A DNA stretch of 24,994 nucleotides, taken from positions 1 to 24,994 of IMG/VR virus record IMGVR_UViG_3300047370_000219, one strand, 5' to 3'. How positions within the stretch are numbered: position 1 is the stretch's first letter; every line of letters starts with the position of its first letter. The position numbers and the translations under genes are program-made. Below are positions 3,414-18,530 of the stretch, one piece after another. The notes beneath the pieces are model-generated. The model saw only the letters and a list, made by a program, of their open reading frames with translations, made no database searches and was not told the DNA's origin. This DNA comes from a virus.

Positions 3414-3911
3414 CTATATTTCCATTTTTTTAAACTCACGCACTATCTGCATAGCTAGTGTGGGAGTGACGATCTTTATTCTCCTCTTGGCTTCGTTTCT
3501 TTCCATCTCATATTCACGATGTGTTTGACCAATCGACCCTGCTACTGAAGAATCAACTACCAACCCATCTTTCTTATACCATTTGACAGTATCAGGCGAT
3601 GCATAGTTAGCAGTTATCATAGCAGTTAGAGCATCATGCTCCAGTGGGAAGTCATTTACATAGTCATAGCGATTATTGATGAGCATAAGGATCCAGTGTA
3701 AATTAGGATCCCCATAAAGTCTCTCAGCTAAGTTTTCGATTGTTTCATACTGCTTTATGTCATAAAACTCATAAGCAGTTATGTTTTGTAGTATTTGTTT
3801 CCTAAGTCTTACATTGGTTGTGATATCAGTAAGTACTTTGAGCTTCTCGTCATTACCTTCTCGTGTAATGTAGTATATCTCGTTGAATTTTTTAAAATAT
3901 GTATCAGCCAT
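3414..3911 (-). CDS. 53: Baseplate wedge protein gp53
   Basis: A 165-residue protein with the gp53 signature: an N-terminal segment ending in YYITREGNDEKLKVLTDI, then a LysM-like core at about residues 45-85 (YEFYDIKQYETIENLAERLYG then DPNLHWILMLINNRYD). In T4, gp53 joins the wedges to each other during baseplate assembly. The C-terminus (EMERNEAKRRIKIVTP and IVREFKKMEI) is the usual charged tail. The gene sits between gp48 and the hub gene; its stop is three bases before the hub start, and its ATG overlaps the gp48 stop region, which fits one late operon. No unusual features are seen. Confidence 0.85.
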   Translation of the reverse strand: MADTYFKKFNEIYYITREGNDEKLKVLTDITTNVRLRKQILQNITAYEFYDIKQYETIENLAERLYGDPNLHWILMLINNRYDYVNDFPLEHDALTAMITANYASPDTVKWYKKDGLVVDSSVAGSIGQTHREYEMERNEAKRRIKIVTPTLAMQIVREFKKMEI

Positions 3912-5194
3912 TATTGACTCATATCTGGTTCAACACCATCTGCTGGGGTTTGCTCTTTTGGAGGAGTTTCACCCATCGCCCCAAGATGCCCTTTAGTAAG
4001 GATAGATAGTTCTTGAAAGGATAATGTCATGTTAATTTGTGTAGGAGCTCCATTATCGAACGAAGTAAACTGACCCTGTGGTGTATAGTTTACATTCACT
4101 TCTTTTAATACAGCTGATGTATGTTTGTGTATATATGGGTTTATAGAGTCACCAATATAGTAGAATATCTCAAACTCTCCTGGATATAGGTATAAGAAAC
4201 CATCATCATCTTTAAACTCAGGATGCATGTGATATTTAAATGTGTTTACAATATTTCGTATATTGTTTGACTCTTCGCCAGAGCGAGGGAAGAACTGGTA
4301 GTCATACTGAAAGGTACGAAAGTCCATGTTCTTGAATATTTGTTCTTTTTTCGGGTTAGGAGCAACACCTGCCATGGCTTGTATTGCTTCACTTCCTGGA
4401 ATATTTTGTAATGCTGCTGCTTGAGCAACACCAGCAGATCCTGCTGTTAAATCATTTACTAGACCTGCTATAGATTCTGATGCAGGTTTTTTACTTGACA
4501 AGTTTTTTACCAAGTCAGTTGCACCTGCAGCAAGTACATCAGCACCTTGCATAAATGCTTGAGTCATAAATGTTTCTGCTTCTTCATACTGAGCACCAGA
4601 ACGAATAGCAAAGTTGTTAGGCATGTGTAAAGCGATAGCATGCTTCATTCTTTTTAGTGGTTTGGAAAACTTCTTACCGAGTGCTGAAGGATTTAAACTG
4701 TCAAAGTTTCCTAATGCTCCTGTTGATACAGCACCTGCTGCTCCAAGTGAAGCAGCACCTTTTGAAATCCCACCAGCAGCACCTGAAAATAATCCACCAA
4801 GTAAAGCACCAGCACCTGCTCCTGTTAGGAAACTACTTCCTATGGCAGCAAAATTACTGAAGCCAGCACCATTAATAGCACGACCAACACCTGGATCTAC
4901 ATCCTCAAGTACTCTTGATGTGTCTTGTGCTATCTTAGATTCTTGCCTTTCATTAATAAAGAACATAACATAATTGCCACCATAATCTGGGACATTTAGT
5001 ATATCTTCTGGATATGATAAGTGCGTGACTGCATAAGAAGGACTCTTATTCGTTTCTTCTACTGCATCATTTAGATCCTCATCAGATACTACTGCTTGAC
5101 TTGTACGAGTAGTAGTTGTTGATGATGTGGAACTGTGATGTGAGTGCGTGACCGACCCAGCGTTTTTTAATGATGCACCCCTTGCTGATGACAT
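3911..5194 (-). CDS. 48: Baseplate tail-tube initiator/cap gp48-like
   Basis: A 427-residue protein. Its C-terminal half (FRTFQYDYQFFPRSGEES, FKYHMHPEF, YLYPGEFEIFYYIG, VLKEVNVNYTPQGQFTSFDNG and INMTLSFQELSILTK) is a tail-tube-like beta-barrel, as in T4 gp48 and gp54, which seed tube polymerisation on the baseplate. The N-terminus is rich in Ser, Thr and His. Residues about 110-180 form a long Gly/Ala-rich, weakly hydrophobic insert (GAGAGALLGGLFSGAAGG) that T4 gp48 lacks in this form. This makes the protein longer than T4 gp48 (364 residues). It is the first gene of the leftward baseplate operon, with a CTAAATA late-promoter-like site 36 bases upstream of its ATG. gp48 is preferred over gp54 because of the neighbours, but this is not certain. 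Confidence 0.78.
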   Translation of the reverse strand: MSSARGASLKNAGSVTHSHHSSTSSTTTTRTSQAVVSDEDLNDAVEETNKSPSYAVTHLSYPEDILNVPDYGGNYVMFFINERQESKIAQDTSRVLEDVDPGVGRAINGAGFSNFAAIGSSFLTGAGAGALLGGLFSGAAGGISKGAASLGAAGAVSTGALGNFDSLNPSALGKKFSKPLKRMKHAIALHMPNNFAIRSGAQYEEAETFMTQAFMQGADVLAAGATDLVKNLSSKKPASESIAGLVNDLTAGSAGVAQAAALQNIPGSEAIQAMAGVAPNPKKEQIFKNMDFRTFQYDYQFFPRSGEESNNIRNIVNTFKYHMHPEFKDDDGFLYLYPGEFEIFYYIGDSINPYIHKHTSAVLKEVNVNYTPQGQFTSFDNGAPTQINMTLSFQELSILTKGHLGAMGETPPKEQTPADGVEPDMSQ

Positions 5195-5207
5195 GTATAT
5201 TTGACCC

Positions 5208-5215
5208 CTAAATAG
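5208..5215 (+). promoter_or_regulatory. Candidate late promoter CTAAATAG for gp4
   Basis: CTAAATAG resembles the T4 late consensus TATAAATA. It lies 24 bases before the ATG of gp4, in the 45-base gap between two diverging late operons. Function is inferred from similarity and spacing. Confidence 0.5.
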
Positions 5216-5230
5216 TAGTTGTATAGGATA

Positions 5231-5237
5231 TATTTAG
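5231..5237 (-). promoter_or_regulatory. Candidate late promoter CTAAATA for gp48 operon
   Basis: On the minus strand this site reads CTAAATATAT and lies 36 bases before the gp48 ATG. It is placed beyond the rightward site at 5208, so the two transcripts would overlap at their starts. Confidence 0.5.
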
Positions 5238-5239
5238 TT

Positions 5240-5707
5240 ATGTTTCACAAAAGAAAATACACCCCATTAAATCCCGAGAAGTACGAAGGAAACCCAACGA
5301 ACATTATTATGCGTTCTAGTTGGGAAACTCGTTTCGCTTCTTGGTGCGATAGATCTAATCATGTGTTAAAATGGAGATCTGAAGAAACAGTTGTGCCTTA
5401 TAGATCGCCAGTAGATAACCGATTGCATCGATACTTTATAGACTTTACAATAAAAGTCAAAAATAAACATGACCAGATACACACCTATTTAGTTGAAATA
5501 AAACCAAAAGTACAATGCTCACCTCCTAAATTTACTGGAAGAAGGACAAAAAAGTATTTGGCTGAGTCAAAAGCATATACTGTAAATGCAGCCAAGTGGA
5601 AAGCAGCAGAACAATACGCATTAGATCGTGGTCAAAAGTTCATTATATTGACTGAAGATGAATTAGGTCTTACATGGAAGACTGGTCTAGATAAAAAGAC
5701 TAAATAG
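5240..5707 (+). CDS. 4: Head completion nuclease gp4 (gp50/gp4 family)
   Basis: A 155-residue protein from the ATG at 5240. It carries the gp4 head-completion pattern: MRSSWETRFASWCD, then VLKWRSEETVVPYRSPVDN, RLHRYFIDFTI and TYLVEIKPKVQ. The D...E-x-K arrangement (FIDF, then LVEIKPK) is that of a PD-(D/E)XK nuclease. T4 gp4 acts after packaging, before the tail joins the head. The frame extends seven codons upstream to a TTG at 5219, but ATG 5240 is favoured: it gives the usual NPEKYEG start region, has AGGA upstream, and sits at a sensible distance from the promoter-like site at 5208. It opens the rightward late operon. The last codons and stop overlap another CTAAATAG site. Confidence 0.85.
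   Translation: MFHKRKYTPLNPEKYEGNPTNIIMRSSWETRFASWCDRSNHVLKWRSEETVVPYRSPVDNRLHRYFIDFTIKVKNKHDQIHTYLVEIKPKVQCSPPKFTGRRTKKYLAESKAYTVNAAKWKAAEQYALDRGQKFIILTEDELGLTWKTGLDKKTK
5700..5707 (+). promoter_or_regulatory. Candidate late promoter CTAAATAG for the thermonuclease operon
   Basis: CTAAATAG spans the last two codons and stop of gp4 and lies 20 bases before the next ATG. This is the same octamer as at 5208 and 8328. It may be internal reinforcement of the late operon. Confidence 0.45.
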
Positions 5708-5727: not shown

Positions 5728-6177
5728 ATGCCCCAACCAAAACTGGGAGATCCAACTGATTTTTCATACAGAATACATAAAGTCACAAAGATAGTCGATG
5801 GTGATACCATTGATGTTATTATTGATATAGGATTTGATATAATGTATAAGTCTAGAGTGAGAATGTTTGGTATCGATACACCCGAATCAAGAACAAGAAA
5901 TAAAGAAGAAAAGATCCGAGGTCTTTTAGCTAAGAAATATTTGACTGAAGCATTAAAAAAAGGTAAGAATCTTTCAATCAAAACATACAAGGATTACGAG
6001 ACTGGTAAGTTCGGTAGAATACTTGGCGATGTATGGATAGATGGTAAGTCTATCAATGCTCAAATGATTAAAGAGTTTATGGCTGTACCATATCGTGGTC
6101 AGTCAAAAGAAGCAATAGAAAAACTACATGAAGCAAACAAACTTATGCTTCAACGACTAGGAAAGATAAGTGGCTAA
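5728..6177 (+). CDS. Thermonuclease (staphylococcal nuclease-like)
   Basis: A 149-residue SNase-fold protein, predicted to cut DNA or RNA in a calcium-dependent way. The family motifs are in order: VTKIVDGDTIDVIID (residues about 16-30), RVRMFGIDTPESR (about 45-57, with the catalytic Arg and Asp positions), KEEKIRGLLAKKYL (catalytic Glu region), KFGRILGDVWIDGKSINAQMI (about 92-112; second catalytic Arg in GRILGDV) and AVPYRGQ. No signal peptide is seen, so it should act in the host cytoplasm or the virion. It has a strong AAGGAG eight bases before ATG 5728. Such nucleases recur beside head genes in marine T4-like phages; a role in host DNA breakdown or DNA trimming is an inference. Confidence 0.9.
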   Translation: MPQPKLGDPTDFSYRIHKVTKIVDGDTIDVIIDIGFDIMYKSRVRMFGIDTPESRTRNKEEKIRGLLAKKYLTEALKKGKNLSIKTYKDYETGKFGRILGDVWIDGKSINAQMIKEFMAVPYRGQSKEAIEKLHEANKLMLQRLGKISG

Positions 6178-6763: not shown

Positions 6764-7585
6764 ATGAAACTGCCAGAATACGCAGAGTGGTCTAGAGAAA
6801 AATTACACAACTCAAAAATACAGGGAATATTCCGACATGGCGAATACCCTATGTTAGATGAAGTCTTTGACCACATACTCCCCCTCTGCCCTGCCTTACT
6901 AGAAGAAGTATTACTTCCCTATGAAGGAGACAATATACAACAACGATTAAATAAAATGTATGAAGAGGATACTTTACCTGTATTTGAAACTGCTGGGTAT
7001 AAGGTGGCGAAAGAAGCCAATGTAGGAAATAAACAGTTAGGTAAGAGAAACCTCGACAGTTGGCATGCTTTTAATTTAATTTGGAATCCAGGAGAAGCTG
7101 GTAAAGGTGTAATGGAAAAGCGAATGAAAAAGAATCGTGATAGATTACCAGTGTTAAGATCTATTTTAGAAAAATATGAACAATGGATAAATGTAATTAC
7201 TTACTCAATGATTGCCCCAAACTCAGTTGTACTGCGTCATACTGGTCATGAAAATAAAGATGGTAAGTATTTAAGATTACACTTTCCCCTCCATATTCCT
7301 GAAGGTGATATATTCCTAGAGGTAAATGACGAGGAGATACAATTTAGCGAAGCACCTTTCGCATTTAATAATCAAATCGTACATTCAGCACACAACAGAA
7401 CAGGTAAACATAGATTGGTCATGATACTAGATTTATATAGACCATTCCTTGGCATACCCACATCTTATTACATAACTAAACTACAAGACCTCACTGGTTG
7501 TACAGATAAATATCTGGTTGACTACGAACGAGATGGGGAAGTATTAAATCCAAGTTGGAAGTCAGGAGCAATAGATAATGATTAA
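6764..7585 (+). CDS. Aspartyl/asparaginyl beta-hydroxylase-like 2-oxoglutarate oxygenase, copy 1
   Basis: A 273-residue protein whose C-terminal half matches the aspartyl/asparaginyl beta-hydroxylase family (Fe(II)/2-oxoglutarate dependent). The key residues can be lined up with human AspH: His159 in RHTG (H679), Arg171 in YLRLHF (R688), His207 in FNNQIVHSAHN (H725) and Arg217 in KHRLVMILD (R735). The spacing between the two His is 48, close to 46 in AspH. This family binds iron with two His and no carboxylate, which fits. Residues 1-140 are a distinct N-terminal region (FRHGEYPMLDEVF) shared with the next gene. The substrate is unknown; a protein side chain is likely from the family. The next gene overlaps its 3' end by eight bases, so the two are probably translated together. 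Confidence 0.83.
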   Translation: MKLPEYAEWSREKLHNSKIQGIFRHGEYPMLDEVFDHILPLCPALLEEVLLPYEGDNIQQRLNKMYEEDTLPVFETAGYKVAKEANVGNKQLGKRNLDSWHAFNLIWNPGEAGKGVMEKRMKKNRDRLPVLRSILEKYEQWINVITYSMIAPNSVVLRHTGHENKDGKYLRLHFPLHIPEGDIFLEVNDEEIQFSEAPFAFNNQIVHSAHNRTGKHRLVMILDLYRPFLGIPTSYYITKLQDLTGCTDKYLVDYERDGEVLNPSWKSGAIDND

Positions 7586-8327
7586 TTTGCCATGGTGGTC
7601 AGAAATACCAAAACAAAGACTACGAGAAATACAAGAACAAAAGATATTTAAACGAGGAGAGTATCCTAAGTTAGATAATATATTTGATGAGTTATCTGCT
7701 CAGAAAGATAATCTAATAAATGACCTCGTTGGTCACTTAGATGAAAAGTGGAGCATGGATAAAAAATTACAATGGGTGTTAGATAATAAAGCTGTGCCTG
7801 TAATGAGTAGGGATAGTATGGGTCATGCTTCAGGTAGTAAAGATAAGAAACCAGCAAAGCTAGACGCATGGCAAAATGTATATTTAAAATACCAACCACC
7901 CTCTACAATATATCGTGATACAGAAGGAGAGAAAGCCAGACCCCAGTATCCTACAGCAAATAAGATATTAAAGCAGTATGAAGAAGTCGTTCCTATCGCT
8001 AATTATAGCATATTAGTAAAGGATTCGGTAATACATAGGCATACTGGACCTGAGAATCGTCGTGGACATCACCTGAGAGTACATATACCACTACATATAC
8101 CCAAGGGAGATATATTCTTAGAGGTAAATGGTTCAGAGGTGGATTGGTCTGATTGCTTCGGTTTTAATAATCAATATACTCATTCTGCTCATAATTATTC
8201 CTTCGAACACCGACTAATACTCCTGATTGACTTTGATAGGAGATATTTAGACATCCCTCCAGGACTTGCTTACGATAAAATGGAGCAAATAACTGGCGAT
8301 CCCAACATAGAATATAAAAGAATCTAA
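7578..8327 (+). CDS. Aspartyl/asparaginyl beta-hydroxylase-like 2-oxoglutarate oxygenase, copy 2
   Basis: A 249-residue diverged paralogue of the preceding gene. Shared features are the N-terminal FKRGEYPKLDNIFDEL block (about 24-39) and the oxygenase half with His155 in RHTGPEN, Arg167 in HLRVHI, His202 in FNNQYTHSAHN and Arg212 in EHRLILLID. All iron- and 2-oxoglutarate-binding positions are kept, so both copies are probably active. The middle region (about 50-130) differs from copy 1, which suggests different substrates or partners rather than a recent duplication. It lies immediately before the tail tube gene, so it should be expressed late with virion proteins. Modification of a virion or host protein is an inference; no direct substrate evidence is present. 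Confidence 0.83.
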   Translation: MINLPWWSEIPKQRLREIQEQKIFKRGEYPKLDNIFDELSAQKDNLINDLVGHLDEKWSMDKKLQWVLDNKAVPVMSRDSMGHASGSKDKKPAKLDAWQNVYLKYQPPSTIYRDTEGEKARPQYPTANKILKQYEEVVPIANYSILVKDSVIHRHTGPENRRGHHLRVHIPLHIPKGDIFLEVNGSEVDWSDCFGFNNQYTHSAHNYSFEHRLILLIDFDRRYLDIPPGLAYDKMEQITGDPNIEYKRI

Positions 8328-14476: not shown

Positions 14477-14728
14477 TTATACATCCAACTTTGCAGTTCT
14501 AGGCAAGAAATTTAAATCCTGATAGTTGGCTTCTAACTTGTCTTTGAGTGCACCTCTAATTAATCCTTTTAATTCTTTTGGGTCAATCTCTGCTTTGCTA
14601 CAATATTCAAGTATAGCATCAAGATGAGATATCCCAGCTTTCTCCTTTACCATTTTCTCTATATACATAGAGAAAGATTTACTATTCTCAAATAGAGTAG
14701 GAAAATCCGTCGTTGCTGATTCGCTCAT
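14477..14728 (-). CDS. 33: Late transcription coactivator gp33
   Basis: An 83-residue protein matching the gp33 family of T4-like phages in size, place and pattern: FSMYIEKMVKEKAGISHLDA (about 19-38), ILEYCSKAEIDPKEL and a C-terminal KLEANYQDLNFLPRTAKLDV. gp33 bridges the host RNA polymerase flap and the gp45 sliding clamp to activate late promoters. Its presence supports reading the CTAAATA sites in this window as late promoters. It directly precedes gp59 as in T4. One CTAAATA site lies 24 bases before its own ATG, so it may boost its own synthesis. Its 5' end overlaps the preceding frame by 41 bases. Confidence 0.88.
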   Translation of the reverse strand: MSESATTDFPTLFENSKSFSMYIEKMVKEKAGISHLDAILEYCSKAEIDPKELKGLIRGALKDKLEANYQDLNFLPRTAKLDV

Positions 14729-18470: not shown

Positions 18471-18477
18471 TATTTAG
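18471..18477 (-). promoter_or_regulatory. Candidate late promoter CTAAATA for the Lys-tailed protein
   Basis: Minus-strand CTAAATAATAG lies 36 bases before ATG 18434, the same spacing as for gp48. It is in a true intergenic gap. Confidence 0.5.
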
Positions 18478-18522: not shown

Positions 18523-18530
18523 CTATTTAG
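18523..18530 (-). promoter_or_regulatory. Second CTAAATAG site in the same gap
   Basis: Minus-strand CTAAATAG directly after the glucosaminidase stop, 52 bases behind the site at 18471. Tandem late promoters are possible. Confidence 0.4.

Follow-up and report, generated by a model that had tools for sequence, protein, structure and literature searches.

The DNA analysed here is a 24,994-nucleotide stretch of viral sequence (IMG/VR record IMGVR_UViG_3300047370_000219, hereafter the window), in which two blocks of structural genes diverge from a short junction. The leftward block begins with gp48, the baseplate tail tube cap (3911–5194, minus strand; PHROG 230, E = 3e-46), and the rightward block begins with gp4, the head closure/completion protein (5240–5707, plus strand; PHROG 218, E = 1e-52), whose ATG at 5240 corresponds to residue 1 in the alignments of its relatives. 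The intergenic gap, as read from the window sequence, spans 5195–5239 (45 bases) and contains two copies of the heptamer CTAAATA, each of which is kept in relatives. The first, which would serve as late promoter for the gp4 operon, lies on the plus strand at 5208–5214 (predicted positions −12 to −6), within CTAAATAG (5208–5215), which stands 24 bases ahead of the gp4 ATG; the box itself ends 25 nt before this codon, inside the usual range of 20–39 nt. The second, the corresponding candidate for the gp48 operon, is visible as TATTTAG at 5231–5237 and reads CTAAATA on the minus strand, ending 36 nt before the gp48 start at 5194. Both neighbouring genes encode virion proteins, each box is in the orientation of its own gene, and the two boxes point toward each other across a 16-nt spacer. 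The positions, motif, and distances given in the preliminary description (a gap of 45 bases, with sites 24 and 36 bases before the genes) agree with the sequence to the base.

According to the rule that the box begins at −12 (available text of Nolan 2006), the gp4 transcript is predicted to start at 5220 on the plus strand, 6 nt past the box, and the gp48 transcript at 5225 on the minus strand. If transcripts do start 6 nt past each box, the leaders would be 20 nt (gp4) and 31 nt (gp48), and the two RNAs would overlap by 6 nt. AGGA at 5225–5228 (plus strand), 11 nt before the ATG, is a weak candidate ribosome-binding site of gp4, and AGGGG at 5205–5209 (minus strand) is a candidate for gp48 that shares the first two bases of the plus-strand box (5208–5209). 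An alternative, longer gp4 start, the TTG at 5219, would lie upstream of the predicted transcript start and was set aside.

Elsewhere in the window, a further CTAAATA is found at 5700–5706 (plus strand), within the 3′ end of gp4 and 21 nt before the ATG of an endonuclease-like open reading frame (5728–6177), and is likely to be another late promoter. Tandem copies occur on the minus strand at 18471–18477 and 18524–18530, 36 and 89 nt upstream of an open reading frame. The rightward region also contains two adjacent paralogues (6764–7585 and 7578–8327, plus strand; 33.9% identity, E = 2.6e-47), which sit between gp2 and a tail tube gene and have no PHROG match at E 1e-5.

CTAAATA as a Putative Late Promoter

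For the T4-like phage Aeh1, CTAAATA beginning at −12 has been published as a putative late promoter (Nolan 2006), and a T4 review repeats this, in the available text of both sources. In the whole window the heptamer is mildly enriched, with 13 matches against 7.3 expected, a number reached by 4 of 100 shuffles. The signal is clearer ahead of genes in G001, an incomplete contig of 70 kb that matches 24.2 kb of the window at 99.87% identity: CTAAATA occurs within 60 nt upstream of 9 of its 102 ATG-initiated open reading frames (1.14 expected), ranks first among 105 permutations of its own letters, and is preceded in the list of enriched gene-upstream 7-mers only by Shine–Dalgarno-like sequences. 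In the wrong orientation, the heptamer lies within 60 nt of the start of only two of the 102 genes, namely gp48 and gp4, and likewise in the window, G003, and G006 no wrongly oriented copy near a gene start is seen outside this junction.

A strong strand bias is seen in the whole genome of Syn9 (177,300 bp), where CTAAATA occurs 23 times on the plus strand and twice on the minus strand, and ATAAATA 37 times and once, respectively; the sole minus-strand ATAAATA is the gp48 box. The distance from box to ATG peaks at 20–29 nt in both Syn9 and P-SSM2. A window open reading frame of 83 aa (14477–14728, minus strand) is similar to Syn9 gp33, a late co-activator (E = 2e-10, 36% over 69 aa), the gp33 homologue being placed at 14489–14692, and the relatives G003 and G005 encode gp55 and gp45, neither of which was matched in the incomplete 70 kb contig of the window's own phage. 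At the level of sequence, the gap carries two features of T4-type late promoters, the CTAAATA variant of the box and its placement a short leader ahead of a late gene. The description of the locus as interlocked divergent late promoters is strongly supported by these motif statistics, together with the retention of both sites in distant phages.

Conservation of the Face-to-Face Pair

The survey of gp4 junctions covered 316 loci, comprising the window, 310 loci from four gp4 queries, and five named records; at most the best 80 loci were taken from each query, so that the proportions below are not a census. Start codons of gp4 and its partner were assigned by rule, and some partner gaps above 55 nt are probably over-long because ATG was preferred over a nearer GTG. 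A divergent partner was found at 295 loci, 18 had too little upstream sequence, two had none despite sufficient room, and one was not called. Dereplication at 85% DNA identity left 123 representatives, among which 80 carry face-to-face boxes, one shows both geometries, eight are back-to-back, and two have overlapping boxes; nine carry only the plus box (including L202, whose second box lies outside the scan range), one carries only the minus box, and 22, in which the start codons abut or overlap, carry neither.

Of the dereplicated junctions, 100 have gaps of 20 bp or more, and 82 of these carry a face-to-face [AC]TAAATA pair; conservation of both sites in relatives was the check named in the preliminary description. 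In 200 shuffles of the same 100 junctions, face-to-face pairs averaged 0.3 and never exceeded three. With CTAAATA alone, 65 of the 100 junctions retain a pair, compared with a mean of 0.2 for other permutations of its letters. A chance origin of the pair is ruled out by the shuffles and the permutations. Across the complete Syn9 sequence, and likewise across 250,000 of the 252,401 bp of P-SSM2, the gp4 junction is the single place with face-to-face boxes spaced 10–30 nt apart. Ten of 18 named phages carry the pair (S-BM3, S-CREM1, P-SSM2, Syn9, S-IOM18, P-RSM1, ACG-2014b, S-RIM2, S-B68, and Pelagibacter phage Mosig); of the other eight, four have only the plus box, Vibrio phage K387 has only the minus box, and three have neither, with overlapping start codons.

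The boxes are conserved far better than the DNA between them, with identities of 0.96–0.996 for the boxes and 0.51–0.65 for the spacer among pairs of equal spacer length. The spacer measures 14–27 nt (median 20) in the 79 representative pairs with at least 12 nt between boxes, two shorter spacers of 7 and 10 nt are found among the junctions with gaps of at least 20 bp, and spacer lengths show no helical phasing (R 0.28).

The arrangement extends beyond the cyanophages. In T2 and Pseudomonas phage PspYZU05, opposing ATAAATA boxes separated by a 7-nt spacer lie between gp4 and a divergent baseplate wedge gene (gp53 in T4 terms), whereas a CTAAATA pair is back-to-back in Vibrio phage V05, and Enterobacter phage Taquito has only the minus box. 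Queries with the T2 and V05 gp4 proteins yielded 38 further IMG/VR loci, and after identical junctions were removed, 17 were face-to-face (one of them, L419, doubtful), five back-to-back, two plus only, one minus only, and two neither, while three had no divergent partner. Spacers in this later survey range over 2–19 nt; the spacing, which the preliminary description had also named for comparison, is not fixed.

A universal arrangement is ruled out by the back-to-back groups and by phages with overlapping start codons and no pair. One back-to-back group uses TATAAATA promoters (L043, L052, L068, L071, L080, L084, and others), in which the boxes are separated by 1 nt in several members and by as much as about 17 nt in others; in several members the plus box lies just 5–6 nt before the gp4 ATG, so that the gp4 mRNA would be nearly leaderless. 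The relatives of V05 are also back-to-back. Within the group of L119, L120, L381, and relatives, the gp48 and gp4 starts overlap (CATG) in P-TIM40, S-SZBM1, and S-WAM1, and no face-to-face pair was found nearby. Together with the variable spacer, these groups argue against one strict regulatory geometry and favour compaction combined with the need for a promoter on each side.

Changes of the Divergent Partner

The gene that diverges from gp4 is not constant. The window, Syn9, and others have gp48 in this place, and P-SSM2, S-BM3, and S-CREM1 have a member of the T4-GC_10 family. The T4-GC_10-type neighbours are related to one another (P-SSM2_013 and S-BM3_045, E = 6e-7) and to the Syn9 gene next after gp4 (Syn9 gp11 and S-CREM1 gene 44, E = 6e-48), so gp4 itself has switched sides. 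In a quick tree built from 136 gp4 proteins, eight partner changes are counted without collapsing, and seven, six, and one after collapsing branches with SH-aLRT values under 80, 90, and 95, respectively. Face-to-face pairs occur in 64 of 76 T4-GC_10-type rows and in 23 of 59 gp48-type rows, the S-B68 row being left without a partner label in this count. The face-to-face pair thus persists across changes of the divergent partner of gp4.

A Probable Compact Bidirectional Late Control Region

Taken together, the 45-bp gap is probably a compact bidirectional late control region, in which two gp55-type promoters are served by mutually exclusive polymerases. Each box would constitute a complete T4-type late promoter, a single −10-like element read by the late sigma factor gp55, with the left box driving gp4 rightward and the right box driving gp48 leftward. 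According to the available text of the T4 review, recognition of T4 late promoters is confined to the box, the gp45 clamp attaches to the polymerase at its upstream edge, and the clamp activates these promoters some 300-fold or more.

A gap of 45 bp combined with the usual leaders of 20–39 nt forces the boxes to interlock; more generally, where two divergent late genes are separated by 30–50 bp, a promoter for each would fit only in the interlocked form. The facing boxes, on opposite strands and 16 nt apart, lie within about one polymerase footprint. Polymerase covers DNA to about +20. At separations up to about 27 nt, each interlocked box would therefore lie under the downstream arm of a polymerase sitting at the opposite box, allowing one initiation complex at a time, and the other promoter could be loaded once the first complex has cleared. 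Such exclusion would follow from the geometry. Steric competition has been described as the main interference mechanism at overlapping promoters (Hao 2019, available text), and at bidirectional promoters of E. coli one direction could be repressed when the opposite one is strongly activated (NAR 2026, available text). The clamp-dependent activation noted above would make competition plausible at the gp4 junction.

The preliminary description had the two polymerases start facing each other and pass through the same DNA. As geometry, this holds in the window under the T4/Aeh1 rule, where the predicted starts (5220 and 5225) cross, but fails in T2, where a 7-nt spacer gives no crossing; shared template is thus not the conserved part. 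The conserved part, as geometry, is the overlap of the two initiation complexes. An antisense overlap of the 5′ ends was likewise dropped as a conserved function, since the T2 spacer yields no RNA overlap.

Whether the interlock has been selected as a balancing device, with competition between complexes setting the ratio of gp4 to gp48 or gp53 transcripts, is a separate matter. Such a role, which the preliminary description had suggested, agrees with the maintenance of the pair over wide divergence and partner change, and with a spacer of at most 27 nt in all 79 measured pairs, which places each box within about 20–25 bp of the opposing start. Nevertheless, spacing ranges over 2–27 nt across both surveys without helical phasing (R 0.28), several groups have lost the pair or carry back-to-back boxes, and the length of the gap by itself forces the interlock. 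In addition, basal activity was too low for competition in all five E. coli bidirectional promoters tested (NAR 2026, available text). Selection for balance is unlikely, and compaction explains the anatomy equally well.

A more speculative possibility, to which we would give still less weight, is that the direction of replication is read by the pair, which would act as a fork-polarity-sensitive selector apportioning head-completion and baseplate transcripts. In T4, the strand loaded with gp45 decides which promoter polarity is activated (T4 review, available text), and a face-to-face pair leaves both upstream edges outward and free, so that clamps of opposite orientation, coming in from the two sides, would each meet their own promoter first. 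If so, a two-way pair would let gp4 flip between operons with neither left unpromoted, a flipping that is suggested by the repeated partner changes.

It is very improbable that only the gp4 box is a promoter and that TATTTAG/TATTTAT beside the gp4 ATG acts in translation as an AU-rich signal. The minus box does adjoin the gp4 start codon in many relatives; however, TATTTAT occurs only once in all of Syn9, and wrongly oriented boxes near gene starts are confined to the gp4 junction in the four sequences named above, so that this is not a general translation signal. Least probable of all, and hardly credible, is a dimeric regulator site or RNA hairpin, because the 7-bp inverted repeat with its 16-nt loop in the window often has unequal arms elsewhere (CTAAATA and ATAAATA), its spacer varies over 14–27 nt without phasing, and each RNA would contain only one arm, given the predicted starts.

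In T4-like phages as far apart as T2, the cyanophages, and a pelagiphage, the point of divergence at gp4 often has a conserved pair of putative opposing late promoters, which offers a setting in nature for testing how promoters compete under a sliding-clamp-activated polymerase. Moreover, [AC]TAAATA provides a usable late-promoter motif for marine T4-like phages, including the pelagimyophages, in which promoter finding had failed earlier (PMC7029224, available text).

Comparison with Known Systems

In literature searches, no listed paper described a pair of opposing late promoters at gp4 in its title or the opening of its abstract, which is at most a weak indication that none exists. A search at the DNA level with 3.3 kb of window sequence matched only a nuclease stretch. 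The individual elements have clear counterparts. The late promoters of T4 (TATAAATA; gp55, gp33, and the gp45 clamp) likewise consist of a single AT-rich box at −13 to −6 with no conserved −35 element (available text), from which the window box differs in having C rather than A at −12. In T2, the T4-type promoters also form a face-to-face pair, in the gap that separates gp53 from gp4; in the window, the partner is gp48, and the spacer is 16 rather than 7 nt, so that the predicted starts cross. The late promoters of Aeh1 share the identical heptamer CTAAATA at the same predicted position, although face-to-face pairing is absent from the text of Nolan 2006 that was compared.

The facing promoters pR and pL of phage 186 are comparable in their expected interference (available text), but these set the lysis–lysogeny choice, whereas both promoters in the window are putative late structural promoters, interlocked so that each serves the gene beyond the other. 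The bidirectional promoters of E. coli (Warman and Grainger, available text) similarly form a short two-way initiation region in which a bound polymerase excludes the other. Those promoters share one pseudo-symmetric −10 element, whereas the window has two boxes 16 nt apart and no shared symmetric −10 element. The finding at the gp4 junction is real and conserved, and its sequence is correctly read as two putative opposing late promoters; it combines known kinds of elements, T4-type late promoters and overlapping opposed promoters, and is conserved more broadly than the preliminary description could foresee.
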